Shown: positions 3,182 through 35,309 of the stretch, piece after piece
How the letters are laid out: the number at the start of each line of letters is the position of its first letter
Position numbering within the stretch: position 1 is the stretch's first letter
Source: Novosphingobium sp. G106
Lineage (GTDB): Bacteria; Pseudomonadota; Alphaproteobacteria; Sphingomonadales; Sphingomonadaceae
NCBI RefSeq assembly: GCF_019075875.1
Contig: NZ_JAHOOZ010000001.1
Span: 5,088,001 to 5,152,000, forward strand
Direction of reading: 5' to 3'
Length of the DNA stretch: 64,000 nucleotides
Program-made: the position numbers and the translations under genes
The notes under the pieces: model-generated
Database searches by the model: none
What the model was told of the DNA's origin: nothing
The model's input: the letters and a program-made list of their open reading frames with translations, nothing else

Positions 3182-4705
3182 ATGCGGACGAGCGGACTGT
3201 TCTGGCGGGCCTTGGGCGCGGCCAACGAAGCCAATGCAGCCGATCGGCCGGCGATCCTGGGAGAGTCCCCCGGCCTTACCCGCCGCCGTCTGCTCGGGGC
3301 CATGGCGGCCAGCGCGGCGCTGCCGGCGATCGGCTGCACGCCGCTGCCGACAGCCAGTGCTTCCACCCGCGTCGCGATCATCGGCGGCGGGCTGGCCGGC
3401 CTGATCGCGCTGCGCGACCTCAAGGCGGCGGGGATCGAGGCGACGCTTTACGAGGCACGCAGCCGGCTCGGCGGGCGCGTTTCGACCTATCACGGCGGCC
3501 CGGTGCCGGCCGACGACGGCGGCCAGTTCATCAACGCCGACCATGCCGATATCCTCGCCCTGGCGAAGCAGCACGGCCTCAAGCTGATCGACCGTGCGCC
3601 GCTTCCGGGCAAGACGTTGCTGATCGACGAATACTGCCGGACCTACACCGAGGAGCAGCTCGCCGAGGACCTGCGCCCGCTCGCCGCGGCGATTGCCGCC
3701 GATGCCGCCGCGATCGACGCGGACCCCGCCGCGATGACGGCGCTCGATGCGATCACGGTCACCCAGTACCTCCAGCGCCACGACAACTCGCTCAAGCCCT
3801 ATGTCCGCATGCTGATGGACGCGACCCTGCGCACCGAATTCGGCCAGGATCCGGGCGAGGCTTCGGCGATCGAGCTGATCTTCAACCTGCCGCAGTCGGA
3901 CGGCAGGAAGGCCATCGTCATCGGCTCGAGCGACGAGCGCTACGTGCTCCATGGCGGCTCGGGCTCGCTGGTCGAGGCGCTGGTTCCGCCGCTGATGCCG
4001 CACATCGAAATGAGCCACGCGTTGCAGTCGGTTCGTCATGCCGGGGACCATGTCCGGCTGCGCTTCGAGAACGGTGCGAGGGTCGAGGCCGAGCGCGTCA
4101 TCGTCACCGTGCCCGCGCCGCTCCTGCGGACGATCGACTTCGGCACCATGCTCCCGCCGCTCTGGCAGCAATATGCGGCCGAGATCGACTGCGGCCGCAA
4201 CGAGAAGCTCAACGCCGCCTATCACGGGCGCCCGTGGGAAGCGTCGATGGGGCGCAAGGGCGACGTCTGGCCCTTGGCGGGCGGCTTCGCCGAAGGTTGG
4301 GACGCGACAACGGTCGAGGGCGACAGCGGCCTGATGACCTTCTTCATGGGCGGCGCGCAGTGCGCCGCCGCGCGCAAGCTGGACGCCGCGGCGCTGCGCC
4401 GCGATTTCGAGACCGTCGTCGCGCATGCCGTGCCGGGGCTGACCCAGGCCGCGACGACCTGGCAGCGCCGCACCAACTGGATCGGCGACCGCTTTTCACG
4501 CGGTGCCTACAGTTGCTTCAAGCCCGGCCAGCTCACGCGCTATGCCAAGCTGTTCTGGCTCGAGGAGAACGGCAAGGCCGTGCAGAGCCCCGTCGTCGGT
4601 CCGCTGGTCTTCGCCGGCGAGCACCTGTCGGACGCCTGGCCCGGCTACATGAACGGCGGCGCGCAGACCGGCCGGCTGGCGGCGCGCGCGGTGCTGGGGG
4701 GATAA
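3182..4705 (+). CDS. Tat-exported FAD-dependent amine oxidase family protein
   Basis: 507 residues from the ATG at 3182, which follows a purine-rich GAAGGGGG site. Residues about 33-52 form a twin-arginine signal (TRRRLLGAMAAS) ending in a lipobox-like AIGC, suggesting a Tat-exported lipoprotein. The dinucleotide-binding motif IIGGGLAGLIALRDL then follows, with LYEARSRLGGRV, and the C-terminus has the amine oxidase closing motif GEHLSDAWPGYMNGGAQTG. This family oxidises primary amines or L-amino acids; the substrate here is unknown. The gene sits between the hisC and metX blocks and looks independently transcribed. Confidence 0.85.
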   Translation: MRTSGLFWRALGAANEANAADRPAILGESPGLTRRRLLGAMAASAALPAIGCTPLPTASASTRVAIIGGGLAGLIALRDLKAAGIEATLYEARSRLGGRVSTYHGGPVPADDGGQFINADHADILALAKQHGLKLIDRAPLPGKTLLIDEYCRTYTEEQLAEDLRPLAAAIAADAAAIDADPAAMTALDAITVTQYLQRHDNSLKPYVRMLMDATLRTEFGQDPGEASAIELIFNLPQSDGRKAIVIGSSDERYVLHGGSGSLVEALVPPLMPHIEMSHALQSVRHAGDHVRLRFENGARVEAERVIVTVPAPLLRTIDFGTMLPPLWQQYAAEIDCGRNEKLNAAYHGRPWEASMGRKGDVWPLAGGFAEGWDATTVEGDSGLMTFFMGGAQCAAARKLDAAALRRDFETVVAHAVPGLTQAATTWQRRTNWIGDRFSRGAYSCFKPGQLTRYAKLFWLEENGKAVQSPVVGPLVFAGEHLSDAWPGYMNGGAQTGRLAARAVLGG

Positions 4706-6885: not shown

Positions 6886-7658
6886 CGCGTAGCTCCGTCG
6901 TTCACCAGCAGCGCGCTGTCGCCGCGCGCCAGCGACCAGAGGCTGAGCCCGGCCGCTTGCGCGCGGTCCACCGCCATGGTCGTCGGTAGCGAGACCGTGA
7001 CCAACGTGGTGCCGCCGGCGCGCACGGTCTTCTCGACGATCTCGTAGGAGCAGCGCGCAGTCGACAGGACGAAGCCGGGGGCCAGTGGCTTGCCGTCTTT
7101 CGCCAAGGCCCCGATCAGCTTGTCGAGCGCATTGTGCCGGCCGACGTCCTCGCGGACGAGGCCGATGGCTCCGGCGTTATCGGCCCAGGCCGCAGCATGC
7201 GCTGCCCCGGTTGCCTGCTGTAGCGGTTGACGCGTTTCGAGCCCAGCCAGCGCGGCGAAGATCGCCTGCGGTTCCAGCGCCGCATGGGTCGCGACCGGCG
7301 GCAACGGCTTCGTCAGGGCTTCGAGGTTCTCGATGCCGCAGAGCCCGCAGCTCGATTCCGCGACACGGGCGCGCACGCGTTCGGTTAGTTGCTCGACCCC
7401 GACGCCCGAAAGCGTCGCGCGGACGATCCAGCCGTGCTCGACTTCGGCCAAGGCCAGGTCGGTAAGGTCGGCGGCGCTGCCCGCGAGCCCTTCGCTCAGC
7501 GCGAAGCCGAGCGCGAAATCGGCGAGATCGGCGGGGGTCGCCATCATCACCGCATAGGACAGGCCGTTGAATTCGAGCGCGACCGGCGCCTCGGGCACCA
7601 GGTCGCGGCTCACGGCGGCGCGGCTTCCATCGGGGAAGACGGAAACCGCGCTCACCAT
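6882..7658 (-). CDS. fdhD: Formate dehydrogenase accessory sulfurtransferase FdhD
   Basis: 258 residues. The catalytic CxxC motif is in SSCGLCGIENL, with further family motifs LVREDVGRHNALDKLIGA and TARCSYEIVEKTVRAGG. FdhD moves sulfur from a cysteine desulfurase to the molybdenum or tungsten bis-MGD cofactor so that formate dehydrogenase becomes active. No formate dehydrogenase or molybdenum-cofactor gene is visible in this window, so its client must lie elsewhere. The GTG/ATG choice is not a problem: the start at 7658 fits the family N-terminus. Confidence 0.92.
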   Translation of the reverse strand: MVSAVSVFPDGSRAAVSRDLVPEAPVALEFNGLSYAVMMATPADLADFALGFALSEGLAGSAADLTDLALAEVEHGWIVRATLSGVGVEQLTERVRARVAESSCGLCGIENLEALTKPLPPVATHAALEPQAIFAALAGLETRQPLQQATGAAHAAAWADNAGAIGLVREDVGRHNALDKLIGALAKDGKPLAPGFVLSTARCSYEIVEKTVRAGGTTLVTVSLPTTMAVDRAQAAGLSLWSLARGDSALLVNDGATR

Positions 7659-7665
7659 CCTGGCA

Positions 7666-8055
7666 TCAGCCGATCACGAGGCCGTGATAGCAGGCCAGCT
7701 TGTTGCCGTCGGGATCGCGCAGGTAGGCGCCGATCTTGCCGCCGGTCTGCGGCTTGGGCTCGGCCTTGCCTTCGCAGGTGCCGCCGTTGGCGAGACCGGC
7801 TTCGTACCAGGCATGGACCTGCTCGTCGCTGTCGGCGGCGAACAGGATCGTGCCGCCGTTGGCGTGGGTCGCAGGCTGGCCGTCGCGCGCCGGGCCGACC
7901 GCGAAGTTCGGGCCGTTCGGGATCTTGTACATGATGATCGGATATTCGGCCGGGGTCGACGAGGCCGGCAGGCCCAGCGCGCCGAAGGTCGCGTCGTAGA
8001 AGGCGCGCGCCTTGTCCATGTCGTTGCAGCCGAGGCGGAGGTTGATGAGGTTCAT
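7666..8055 (-). CDS. VOC-family (glyoxalase-like) protein, copy 1
   Basis: 129 residues forming one vicinal-oxygen-chelate fold: N-terminal MNLINLRLGCNDMDKARAFYDATF and C-terminal AYLRDPDGNKLACYHG, the standard VOC opening and closing strands. Members act as lyases, dioxygenases or binding proteins; the substrate is not predictable here. It follows the second VOC gene on the same strand by 30 bases, and the two share the NGGTCEGK/NGGKSCEE region and the RDPDGNK motif, so they are tandem paralogues. Confidence 0.85.
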   Translation of the reverse strand: MNLINLRLGCNDMDKARAFYDATFGALGLPASSTPAEYPIIMYKIPNGPNFAVGPARDGQPATHANGGTILFAADSDEQVHAWYEAGLANGGTCEGKAEPKPQTGGKIGAYLRDPDGNKLACYHGLVIG

Positions 8056-8085
8056 GTCGTTGGTTCCTTATTGGCCCAGGGGTAC

Positions 8086-8466
8086 TTATTGACCCAGCGG
8101 GTACATGGCGCAGAGCTTGTTGCCGTCCGGATCGCGCAGATAGGCGAGATGGAGCTTGGCGAAGCCGAGGTCGCGCGGCCCGGGCGCTTCCTCGCAGCTC
8201 TTGCCGCCGTTGGCGACGCCCGCGGCGTGCCAGGCGTCGGCCTGCTCGGGGCTCGCCATCTGGAAGCCGATCGTGCCGCCGTTGGCGAAAGTGGCCGCTT
8301 CGCCGTTGATCGGCTGGGTCACCATGAAGTTGGCGCCGTTGTGCGAATAGGCGATGCGCGAGCCCATGTTCATGCCGGGATTGCCCCCGATGGCGGTGAA
8401 CAGGGCGTCGTAGAACGCCTGCGATTTCTCGAGGTCGTTGCTGCCAACGACGACGTGGGTGAACAT
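8086..8466 (-). CDS. VOC-family (glyoxalase-like) protein, copy 2
   Basis: 126 residues with the VOC pattern: MFTHVVVGSNDLEKSQAFYDALF at the start (shown in part) and LAYLRDPDGNKLCAMYP at the end. It is the first gene of a two-gene unit with its paralogue downstream. Divergent from the secreted-protein gene beginning at 8633; the 166-base gap should carry both promoters. Function beyond family membership is unknown. Confidence 0.85.
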   Translation of the reverse strand: MFTHVVVGSNDLEKSQAFYDALFTAIGGNPGMNMGSRIAYSHNGANFMVTQPINGEAATFANGGTIGFQMASPEQADAWHAAGVANGGKSCEEAPGPRDLGFAKLHLAYLRDPDGNKLCAMYPLGQ

Positions 8467-8632
8467 GATTCTTCTCCCGATTTTGGTCCGTGCGGAGCGG
8501 GTTCTATCGGCCTCCGGGCCGCGGTCAATCGCTCATATTCGGGTGTCAATTCAGGCGCATATTCAGGTGAGGGCAATCGGCGCTATCCTACCCAGCGTTC
8601 TTTCGATTCGCCGGTTGGAAAGGCCCCCGTCC

Positions 8633-30140: not shown

Positions 30141-30182
30141 CCCGGACTCGGCCGGCGCATTAGGCGCTTGTCGAGTGCCGGG
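30141..30182 (+). terminator. Imperfect hairpin after thiC
   Basis: CCCGGACTCG (30141-30150) pairs with CGAGTGCCGGG (30172-30182) around one bulge, and GCGC (30155-30158) with GCGC (30164-30167) in the middle. It starts 10 bases after the thiC stop. There is no U-tract, so it is either a Rho-assisted end or only a structure that stabilises the transcript. Confidence 0.4.
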
Positions 30183-32547: not shown

Positions 32548-32841
32548 ATGAAACACTACCTGCTGATCTATCACCTCGCCCCCGACTACCTCGACCGCCG
32601 CCCGCAGTTCCGCGAGGCGCACCTGGCGCTGGCCAAGGAAGCGGTGGCGCGCGGCGAACTGCTCCTGGGCGGCGCCCTCGCCCCCGCCGACCGCGCGATG
32701 CTGCTGTTCGCCGGCGAGGACAGCAGTGCGGCCGAACGTTTTGCGGAAAGCGATCCCTATGTGGCGAACGGGCTGGTCGAGCGCTGGGAAGTGCGGGGGT
32801 GGACGACGGTTGTGGGCGAAGGGGCGGCGGTGGCGCTGTAG
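32548..32841 (+). CDS. YciI-family protein
   Basis: 97 residues with ferredoxin-like fold: MKHYLLIYHLAPDYLDRRPQ, REAHLALAKEAVARGELLLGGALA (in parts), AERFAESDPYVANGLVERWEVR. The His/Asp pair of the H-x-x-x... D-P-Y arrangement matches YciI. Enzymatic function unknown; some relatives are hydrolases or dehalogenase-like. Its end at 32841 marks the last high-GC base before an AT-rich cassette. Confidence 0.88.
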   Translation: MKHYLLIYHLAPDYLDRRPQFREAHLALAKEAVARGELLLGGALAPADRAMLLFAGEDSSAAERFAESDPYVANGLVERWEVRGWTTVVGEGAAVAL

Positions 32842-32847
32842 GGTCGG

Positions 32848-34032
32848 TTATTTTTGTTTTGGATCGAAACCTCGCAATGCTTTAAGTTCGTCGGGATTGT
32901 TGGCTATATTAATCAGAAAGTCGACCCATTTATCTGAGTATGTATAATCTCTATGTGCAGCGTGATAGTAGCAGAAATCTTTTTTGCAATCATCCGGCTT
33001 TTTTGCTTTATTACGCGGTCTTACGCCAAATTTTTTCCAAGCTAGCTGGTGGTCATGTGATGTGAAATTTGCATCACAGGCCTCATTGATTTTCTGTAAA
33101 ACGGCGGTTGGTTTGTATGGCCATAGCTCATCTCCAACGACCTTTTTAGTCAAAATATTGGATAATTTTTCGGATTCTTTGTTGTTTTCCGTGAAAACTA
33201 TGTGGGAATCGCCTTTTGTTGCTTTTTCAAATGTGTAGTTAACTTTGAACTTGTAGCTTGGTCCTTCATTTCCGGTCTCCTCAATTGCTTGACTGATCTG
33301 TTGGTCAATTGCTTCAATTGCTGGTGACAAGTCGTATTTTTGCAAATGGGCTAGCTGATTGAGCTGCATTTTTCCGAACTGAAGGGACAGCGAAAGAGTT
33401 TGCTCTAGACCTGCATTTTCTCCAAAAAGCTTCCTAATAGTCTGATCAAAATTGAGGCAATTTGCCTGAAATAGAGGCCAGTACAGCCTGCCAACAGAGG
33501 ATAGCATGGTGTGTTCAACGCTATCTCTTAGGGTTTTGACCGCTAAAAGGTTTTTCTTTACGTCAGTATTTAGAGGGCAGTCCTCTCTATTGAGAATTTG
33601 GCTCAATAGCAGGGAGTTTCCATTGGCGTCTGTGATGGAAATTCCTTTAAGATCATAATACTCATGAAGAAGATATGTCCAGGCTATTTGACTCAGGACG
33701 GGAAATATTTCAATCTTGAAGAGAATAGATGGGCTATTGAATATCTGAACCGCGGAAATCATGGCTTCTCGGGCGCGAAATATTCGTTCATCATCTATGG
33801 GAGATAGTCCACTCTTTAGGTCGACTAGGGATTTTTCGTATTTATACCTGGAAACTTCATCATCAGAAGCCGCCTCAACATCCCAATTCGCTGATCCTGC
33901 CAGGCGCCCCGGATTGATCGTTGGAGTGCGGCCAGTGTTGATCAGCTGTTGGACATTTTGGTACGCTATCCCATCCAACAAGAGCTTCTTTGCAAGTCGT
34001 CGCTCGCGGTCAGTGAGAGCGGGTGTTCTCAT
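32848..34032 (-). CDS. DUF3644-domain protein, candidate HEPN-type nuclease
   Basis: 394 residues in unusually AT-rich DNA compared with neighbours. N-terminal segment (LLLDGIAYQNVQQLINTGRT, residues 17-36) looks like a helix-turn-helix. The DUF3644 core follows: SAVQIFNSPSILFKIEIF and SQIAWTYLLHEYY. At residues 169-174 LRDSVEH gives an R-x4-H, the HEPN ribonuclease motif. The distal half is Lys-rich and ends with YTYSDKWVDFLINIANN. Start overlaps the upstream partner as ATGA. Role is inferred, not known: an RNA-cutting effector is plausible. Confidence 0.72.
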   Translation of the reverse strand: MRTPALTDRERRLAKKLLLDGIAYQNVQQLINTGRTPTINPGRLAGSANWDVEAASDDEVSRYKYEKSLVDLKSGLSPIDDERIFRAREAMISAVQIFNSPSILFKIEIFPVLSQIAWTYLLHEYYDLKGISITDANGNSLLLSQILNREDCPLNTDVKKNLLAVKTLRDSVEHTMLSSVGRLYWPLFQANCLNFDQTIRKLFGENAGLEQTLSLSLQFGKMQLNQLAHLQKYDLSPAIEAIDQQISQAIEETGNEGPSYKFKVNYTFEKATKGDSHIVFTENNKESEKLSNILTKKVVGDELWPYKPTAVLQKINEACDANFTSHDHQLAWKKFGVRPRNKAKKPDDCKKDFCYYHAAHRDYTYSDKWVDFLINIANNPDELKALRGFDPKQK

Positions 34033-34472
34033 CGGGCAAGTAGCAGGCGGCAGGCCCACTCTTCATCGTTCCACCTTGTGGCAAAAGCGTCATGCACCTC
34101 GAACCAACTCCCATCATTTCCCGCACCATGATTTTGTCCCATGCATGAGCATTGGCATTCATGGCCGACAGCATTCATGCACGCAGGGGCGCATTTTTCC
34201 TGTTCTCGAAATGGTTGAATTATATAAACTTTTCCAAAGTGTTTCAGTGATCTGTCTATAAAATCGTTGAACCAAGCCTTCGGTATTTCCCAGTAACGTA
34301 GGCCATTAAGCCATACGGGGCGCGTCGATCGTCCGTTTCGCAACCAATCTCGATTGCCATCTGAGTAGGGCAAGCGAAGGCGGTGCTGCTGACCTCTCTT
34401 GGTGCGTCTGATAATTACCGGAATCGCAGTTTGTCGCCAAATTCTCCGTAATTCTTCATCGTTACGGCGCAT
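34029..34472 (-). CDS. Cysteine-rich conserved hypothetical protein coupled to the DUF3644 gene
   Basis: 147 residues from the ATG at 34472 (GGAG site 9 bases upstream); an in-frame ATG at 34529 would add 19 residues. Features: Trp/Arg-rich blocks IWRQTAIPVIIRRT and NRDWLRNGRSTRPVWL, YWEIPKAWFNDFI, then five cysteines and two histidines in CAPACMNAVGHECQCSCMGQ (residues 94-113), a likely zinc site, and WACRLL near the end. It is the first gene of the two-gene cassette and overlaps the DUF3644 gene. I recall similar orphan proteins but no function. Confidence 0.65.
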   Translation of the reverse strand: MRRNDEELRRIWRQTAIPVIIRRTKRGQQHRLRLPYSDGNRDWLRNGRSTRPVWLNGLRYWEIPKAWFNDFIDRSLKHFGKVYIIQPFREQEKCAPACMNAVGHECQCSCMGQNHGAGNDGSWFEVHDAFATRWNDEEWACRLLLAR

Positions 34473-34682
34473 ATCATGCACTCCATCACGATATGCTTTA
34501 GCAATTCTCAAATGCGCGTGAAATCGCATTCAGACCAAATCGCACACATATATGAACCGTTTTGGCGGGTTTCCCGTCAGTCTTGCCGGCTAAAAGAACA
34601 AGGTAACGGGAGCGCGAGGGCGATGGCCCTCGCATCTGAAAACCCTTTCCTACACCCCCCATCCTGTGCCTTATCCTGCCCG

Positions 34683-35309
34683 ATGAAGCACGAAGCCCTC
34701 CTCCCGCCGGGCGAGCCGCTCGCCTCTGACCTCACCGCCGATGAAACCCGCCCCGGCGACCGCTGGGATGCGCCGAAGATGGCGGCGTTCCTGCGCCAGC
34801 TTTCGGCCACCCATTCGGTCAGCGCCGCGGCGCGGTCGGTGGGGATGAGCCGGCAGTCGGCCTATCGGCTGCGGTCGCGGCTGAAGGGTGGGGCGTTCGA
34901 CCTCGCCTGGGACGTCGCCTTCCACCACTCCTACGACAACCTCGCCCATGCCGCGCTCGAGCGGGCCTTGAACGGCGTCGAGATCCCGGTGTTCCACCGC
35001 GGCGAGCAGATCGGTTCCTATCGCAAGTACGACGAGCGGCTGACCCTGCGTCTGCTGGCGCTGAGCACGCAGCGCGGCAACGTGCCGGTGCTCGGTCGCC
35101 GCGGACCCGAGGCCGAGCTGCACGCGCGGCGGTTCGATGCGCTGGTGGCCGAAGTGGAGATGGGCGAGGGCGACGAGGTCCCGCTCGCCGATCCCGGCCC
35201 GGCGGCCGAGGGCGAGCTGATACATATTCACTCCCTTGATCCGTCCGCTCCGTCCGAGGCCGATATTATCGCGGCCTTGCAGGAGCTTGAGGGCGAAGAG
35301 GGCGGGTGA
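34683..35309 (+). CDS. Helix-turn-helix protein, terminase-small-subunit-like
   Basis: 208 residues from the ATG at 34683. An HTH (SVSAAARSVGMSRQSAYRLRSRL) follows an acidic N-terminus, then a helical region (YDERLTLRLLALSTQRGNVP) and an acidic tail. The HTH resembles phage terminase small subunits and small DNA-binding proteins; this protein type is common in sphingomonads without an associated phage. Base composition is back to the high-GC norm. No neighbouring terminase large subunit. Confidence 0.72.
   Translation: MKHEALLPPGEPLASDLTADETRPGDRWDAPKMAAFLRQLSATHSVSAAARSVGMSRQSAYRLRSRLKGGAFDLAWDVAFHHSYDNLAHAALERALNGVEIPVFHRGEQIGSYRKYDERLTLRLLALSTQRGNVPVLGRRGPEAELHARRFDALVAEVEMGEGDEVPLADPGPAAEGELIHIHSLDPSAPSEADIIAALQELEGEEGG

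Follow-up and report, generated by a model that had tools for sequence, protein, structure and literature searches.

The HEPN proteins of the EC042_2821 family overlap with DUF3644 and are fused to helix-turn-helix (HTH), nuclease-like and zinc-ribbon (ZnR) domains (Anantharaman et al. 2013, PMC3710099). The passages of that survey which treat the family name winged HTH (wHTH), restriction endonuclease (REase) and ZnR fusions together with restriction-modification (R-M) operons, and a conserved Rx4H-type pattern is linked there to ribonuclease (RNase) activity. Here we analysed a 64,000 nt window, by which we mean the whole stretch from position 5,088,001 to 5,152,000 (forward strand) of contig NZ_JAHOOZ010000001.1, from the 7.2 Mb genome of Novosphingobium sp. 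G106 (GCF_019075875.1), in which a gene of the DUF3644 family is preceded by the gene for a small cysteine-rich protein, hereafter P. Tentatively, the two genes may be read as a mobile defence unit whose effector, a HEPN protein of abortive-infection type, would have acquired P as a promiscuous nucleic-acid-binding accessory. This is the explanation we favour, at a probability a little below even.

Both genes lie on the minus strand (Table 1) and their 4 nt overlap is seen in the DNA, in agreement with a first-pass annotation of the window that had described an ATGA-overlapping pair with a lower guanine-plus-cytosine (GC) content than its flanks. The compositional part of that description was borne out as well, with a GC content of 42.4% for the DUF3644 gene, 49.8% for P and 44.5% for the cassette as a whole, compared to 65.3% for the window. 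Moreover, the lowest-GC stretch of cassette size in the window starts at 32851. Therefore, the cassette is compositionally foreign.

The DUF3644 protein as a probable HEPN effector

The larger protein matches PF12358 (DUF3644) with E=1.7e-35 (122.7 bits against a cut-off of 27.6) and seven PDC-S19 models in PADLOC, the best with E=1.8e-47. The DUF3644 core and the defence setting that had been proposed for it are both upheld, the protein being a catalogued defence candidate, PDC-S19; a search of a literature collection for PDC-S19 found no paper. An Rx4H motif had also been placed at R169-H174, and across the 79 rows of alignment A3, window protein included, R169 and E173 are invariant (79/79 each), while D170 is found in 77/79 and H174 in 78/79. 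The predicted model has a HEPN-like fold of four helices, the fold that was to be checked, and places the motif where helix 3 ends. The N-terminal helical segment (~1-70) may be HTH-like, and the C-terminal REase-like domain PF18740 is matched at 22.5 bits, below its cut-off of 24.9. By sequence, no solved relative was convincing. The HEPN reading of this protein is likely. On sequence and model, a ribonuclease reading fits the kind of protein described in 2013 and the effector side is not new; RNase activity would be expected by analogy.

Protein P and its predicted fold

We identified 696 relatives of P at E<=0.001, the best 120 of which were listed. P itself matched no family in Pfam, NCBIfam or PADLOC, and 68 P members gave nothing convincing against Pfam. 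The first-pass annotation had suggested a zinc cluster of five cysteines and two histidines. After exclusion of 6 partial P proteins from 104 loci, the remaining 98 and the window's own make 99 full-length proteins, all of which (99/99) carry the five cysteines and H115. H104 is kept throughout the closer set A4 (68/68 rows) and substituted in some remoter members. Thus five cysteines and one histidine remain as the core of the putative cluster, and the second histidine does not.

The model of P has a mean predicted local distance difference test (pLDDT) score of 80.3, falling below 50 at residues 103-107 and 113-118, within the cysteine segment. Its core is predicted as beta-beta-alpha-beta-beta-alpha-beta, with structural matches to HARP, MutS domain I and the archaeal XPB damage-recognition domain, all of which are binders of DNA structures. 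We treat this modelled likeness as a structural lead only. HARP (PF07443) is absent from the 12 listed families matched by 68 P members at E<=10, and hhalign of P against the UvsW N-terminus returned 0.3%. Further structural matches to Alba, SpoVS, DHFR, methyltransferase and ribosomal-factor proteins represent common folds, with scores like or below those of the MutS rows. No solved relative of P was convincing by sequence, and a literature search for a defence-island or HARP-like protein resembling P gave nothing to the point.

Two further proteins were also recorded. A weak relative (E 9e-3) is gp40 of Mycobacterium phage Moonbeam (L224 2755-3246; loci are numbered L and genomes G throughout), encoded between integrase and repressor genes. 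On plasmid pPZG101 of Streptomyces rimosus (L175 ~3890-4660), a reading frame combines a P-like part with an annotated endonuclease domain.

Association of P with DUF3644

P precedes a DUF3644 gene with the -4 overlap at five loci, namely the window's own, L161, L047, L089 and L030. The DUF3644 proteins of L161, L047 and L089 are 69%, 71% and 64% identical to that of the window. At L030 (Sphingomonas arenae, 6995-8615) P is intact and the DUF3644 frame beside it is broken into two pieces; P0208 (222 aa), the DUF3644 protein listed for S. arenae, shows 72% identity over 56% of the window's protein. All five pairs fall within one DUF3644 subclade, and as L030, L047 and L089 were found through P, only the window's own locus and L161 are free of that ascertainment bias. 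Among the first 43 DUF3644 relatives listed, 11 share the size of their longest contig with a listed P relative, against 1 of the later 77, where the matching size of 1593 nt is too short for both whole genes. Such pairing is weaker evidence, being drawn from the best 120 of 696 P and the best 120 of 1057 DUF3644 relatives, and equal sizes can be chance.

Beyond this subclade the association was not seen. P was not found near 21 other DUF3644 loci (all <50% identical where aligned), 20 of which are informative, L152 starting inside the gene. Five of these 21 loci encode full-length or nearly full-length DUF3644 proteins at 43-44% identity; two sub-threshold DUF3644 matches (G040, G165) were left out of the locus set. 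The source genome also carries, outside the window, a second and remote member of the DUF3644 family (C1:5746639-5747697, L159), which is without P. DUF3644 is present at 3/80 P genome loci, these being the best 80 of 164. Across 385 genomes of the class, P occurs in at least 2 and DUF3644 (A3 profile) in at least 12; across 199 genomes of the family, P occurs in at least 4 and PF12358 in at least 13, 11 of them above the cut-off, all being lower bounds as the first search stage scores only part of the candidates.

Co-occurrence of the two families in one operon, the check suggested with the first-pass annotation, was therefore found at five loci inside one subclade and at none of the 21 lying beyond it. 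The idea of a dedicated pair, whether sensor-effector or toxin-antitoxin, which that annotation had envisaged, is mostly not supported, the five pairs being confined to one subclade and the P family lying beside many other systems. Because of this split co-occurrence we reject it as the main reading, and P is not a dedicated DUF3644 partner.

Association of P with other defence systems

P resides in defence islands. Its relatives elsewhere adjoin AbiE, IetAS, the cyclic oligonucleotide-based antiphage signalling system (CBASS), Gabija, AbiJ, BstA, RmrA, restriction enzymes and others, and many of the 80 P loci have identifiable defence genes in their surroundings. We drew 30 representatives from the 45 clusters that same-strand neighbours of at least 200 aa formed; 17 of these 30 match PADLOC at E<=1e-10 (IetS, AbiEii, SoFic, PDC-M54A, RmrA, NsnA, dCTP deaminase, BstA, PDC-M34B, PDC-S02, Ppl, type IIG and type IV restriction enzymes, PDC-S51, CBASS phospholipase, GajB and a type II restriction enzyme), and one further representative matches AbiJ_NTD3 in Pfam. 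The 13/30 with no PADLOC match at this threshold include MutS, GlnD, DnaN and AlkZ-like genes. In all, P's family adjoins members of at least 12 PADLOC families. Plasmid-borne copies lie beside CBASS, Shedu, AbiEii, HipA, SbcCD-like, NERD and relaxase genes. Short gaps to P recur, being 31-65 bp with IetS in 7 loci and 2-6 bp with the c27 gene in 4.

We also asked whether close relatives of P are shared between contexts. A quick tree was built from 85 P proteins, after dropping 14 of the 99 that were identical within a context, with context labels assigned by hand from neighbour scans and support below 80 on 36/81 inner branches. It places four of the five DUF3644-linked P proteins in one clade (support 98), with L089 elsewhere. 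A further clade (21 rows, support 88) contains P proteins linked to CBASS phospholipase, AbiE, AbiJ, a HipA-neighbour gene and others. Not every locus counts as independent, since P is identical in L032/L162, L099/L003, L091-L097 and others. Between such contexts, the ratio of non-synonymous to synonymous substitution (dN/dS) was 0.04-0.10 in 7/8 hand-picked pairs, the eighth being saturated. Hence close P relatives are under purifying selection beside at least three recognised systems, and the function of P therefore seems not to be tied to one neighbour. By eye, the DNA upstream of P differs between several contexts except in the ~20 bases directly ahead of the start codon. Taken together, the cross-context selection and differing upstream DNA suggest that P is retained either for its own function or for one from which many systems benefit.

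Several neighbours of P are recorded as side observations. The c27-type gene encodes 300-319 aa and ends 2-6 bp ahead of P (L086:6020-6979; L061, L077, L103); its representative had no match in Pfam or PADLOC, and a HipA-like gene lies nearby in L061 and L103. At L163 6989-7474 a P relative is flanked by a mutS-like and a glnD-like gene, 32 and 3 bp away. At L076 279-2834, related, uncharacterised genes of ~342 aa flank P on both sides with gaps of 21 and 10 bp.

Possible roles of the cassette

If our favoured reading is right, the cassette would be a defence unit gained horizontally, with the EC042_2821-type DUF3644 protein as its effector, built from a HEPN domain whose Rx4H site is intact, preceded by an HTH-like head and followed by a tail that may be nuclease-like. 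Judged from its family, this effector would most likely cleave RNA on infection and so halt growth. P, translated just before it, would be a promiscuous defence-island accessory and not a private antitoxin. It would most likely bind branched, forked or single-stranded nucleic acid via the modelled HARP/MutS-I-like core, to which a zinc-type cysteine cluster would lend stability, and may mark or sense foreign replication intermediates for whatever effector adjoins. We infer this metal and nucleic-acid binding, as well as a functional link between P and DUF3644. One comparison weighs against this reading: the immediate neighbour of P is not demonstrably richer in defence genes than the rest of the island. 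As a control, 24 genes lying >4 kb away from P were hand-chosen from 107 and gave ~8 PADLOC-matching members at E<=1e-10, a figure that assumes same-name models hit one protein, in a comparison without an ordinary-chromosome baseline. This weaker control slightly lowers our confidence in the reading. The bolder joint claim, that P is a zinc-type, HARP-like and system-agnostic immunity plug-in which detects replication structures of foreign origin and either licenses or restrains the many unrelated effectors that adjoin it (HEPN RNase, CBASS, AbiE, IetAS, Gabija and restriction enzymes), seems to us rather improbable.

P might instead belong to mobile elements or defence islands as an autonomous gene, either a single-gene defence factor or a plasmid or phage DNA-metabolism protein, that hitch-hikes and was captured with DUF3644 by chance, sharing transcription alone. 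Different systems do have closely related P proteins next to them, on one side or the other and on either strand, the DNA of some contexts (L113, L066, L164, L046; by eye) is alike for only ~20 nt ahead of the start codon, and P is found on plasmids, once behind the relaxase gene traA, as well as in weakly related form between integrase and repressor in mycobacteriophage Moonbeam (E 9e-3). However, the -4 overlap is kept in each of the five DUF3644 pairs and the short gaps to IetS (31-65 bp, 7 loci) and the c27 gene (2-6 bp, 4 loci) recur; both indicate selected coupling, and we consider such hitch-hiking somewhat unlikely. Direct neutralisation of the DUF3644 RNase by P, as in a classical toxin-antitoxin system, would suit a small upstream gene that overlaps a larger putative RNase gene, the five pairs in one subclade and the 11 listed P/DUF3644 protein pairs with a same-size longest contig. 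An antitoxin would, however, be consistently linked to its toxin family, and here P stands at 0/21 loci outside the subclade, among them the five whose DUF3644 is full-length or almost so at 43-44% identity (the upstream side of L152 being missing), and DUF3644 at 3/80 P loci. P moreover lies beside many unrelated systems and is conserved whatever the neighbour, which makes this highly doubtful. As for the effector, it is quite improbable that DUF3644 is chiefly a DNA-binding regulator, or acts mainly through the nuclease-like domain at its C-terminus, with the HEPN domain serving only a structural role, given the invariant R169 and E173 and near-invariant H174 (78/79), a pattern tied to RNase activity in passages of PMC3710099, and the PF18740 match below cut-off.

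Gene layout and flanking regions

Table 1. Features of the cassette, in window coordinates unless residues are given.
Feature	Position	Strand	Details
DUF3644 protein, 394 aa	34032..32848	-	N-terminal helical segment ~1-70 (possibly HTH-like), HEPN-like domain ~70-215, C-terminal region
C-terminal region of DUF3644 protein	residues 315-382		weak EC042_2821 nuclease-like match
Codons of the R169-H174 motif (HEPN Rx4H)	33511..33528	-	computed from the start at 34032
ATGA overlap	34029..34032	-	P stop and DUF3644 start, read from DNA; same -4 overlap in L030, L047, L089, L161
Protein P, 147 aa	34472..34029	-	alpha/beta core ~14-87, cysteine-rich segment, C-terminal beta hairpin
Cysteine-rich segment of P			C94-x3-C98...C106-x-C108-x-C110-M-G...H115

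We place the DUF3644 start at the ATG at 34032, within GATGA; the open reading frame list gives a longer GTG start at 34059. P starts at the ATG at 34472, with GGAG 8 nt ahead, and its stop ends at 34029. An alternative in-frame ATG lies at 34529, yet several close relatives start at the 34472 position.

The ordinary chromosomal flanks that had been described hold only partly, as the gene at 32548-32841 is matched in 1/24 other same-genus genomes (G585). There, relatives of the window genes at 30175 and 35410 lie within ~3 kb of its counterpart in changed order, and neither cassette gene was found. A recent insertion with a visible empty site was rejected, G585 being without the cassette but with other genes there and a rearranged neighbourhood; among the 24 genomes, in which only G585 has the neighbouring gene, no clean empty site was seen. 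Nor did we see flanking repeats; the repeat search gave just one 19-mer, present in two copies (79% alike) that lie inside the cassette. The window yielded no Rfam match at gathering scores and no tRNA, and promoter and terminator scans were near chance level. A short sequence at 34601-34637, which includes the inverted repeat gcgagggc-gatg-gccctcgc, recurs in the source genome and several same-genus genomes, in some cases close to relatives of the gene at 34683-35309.

Comparison with known systems

In summary, the effector is of a described kind, and P represents a conserved family that has no Pfam, NCBIfam or PADLOC model. P would be a shared accessory or else a defence factor of one gene that has been overlooked; a shared accessory would be out of the ordinary, as most defence partners serve a single system, and the promiscuity of P is the interesting part of the finding.

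The DUF3644 protein resembles the EC042_2821/DUF3644 HEPN family in its PF12358 match, an Rx4H with a polar residue after R, its HEPN-like model, its possibly HTH-like head and a weak EC042_2821 tail, but here P precedes it with an ATGA overlap, and the survey passages on the family name no such partner (PMC3710099). P differs from HARP, MutS domain I and XPB in showing no sequence match to them and in being small and stand-alone, with a cysteine cluster, outside any helicase or MutS. Some likeness exists to phrog_6842, a group of uncharacterised phage proteins, matched by 68/68 A4 rows at E<=10 (best 1.4e-6); in the window's P, this match is confined to residues 88-117. Lastly, the DUF3644 protein matches the models of PADLOC PDC-S19, where we take PDC-S to denote a single-gene candidate, whereas the locus described here has P in addition.
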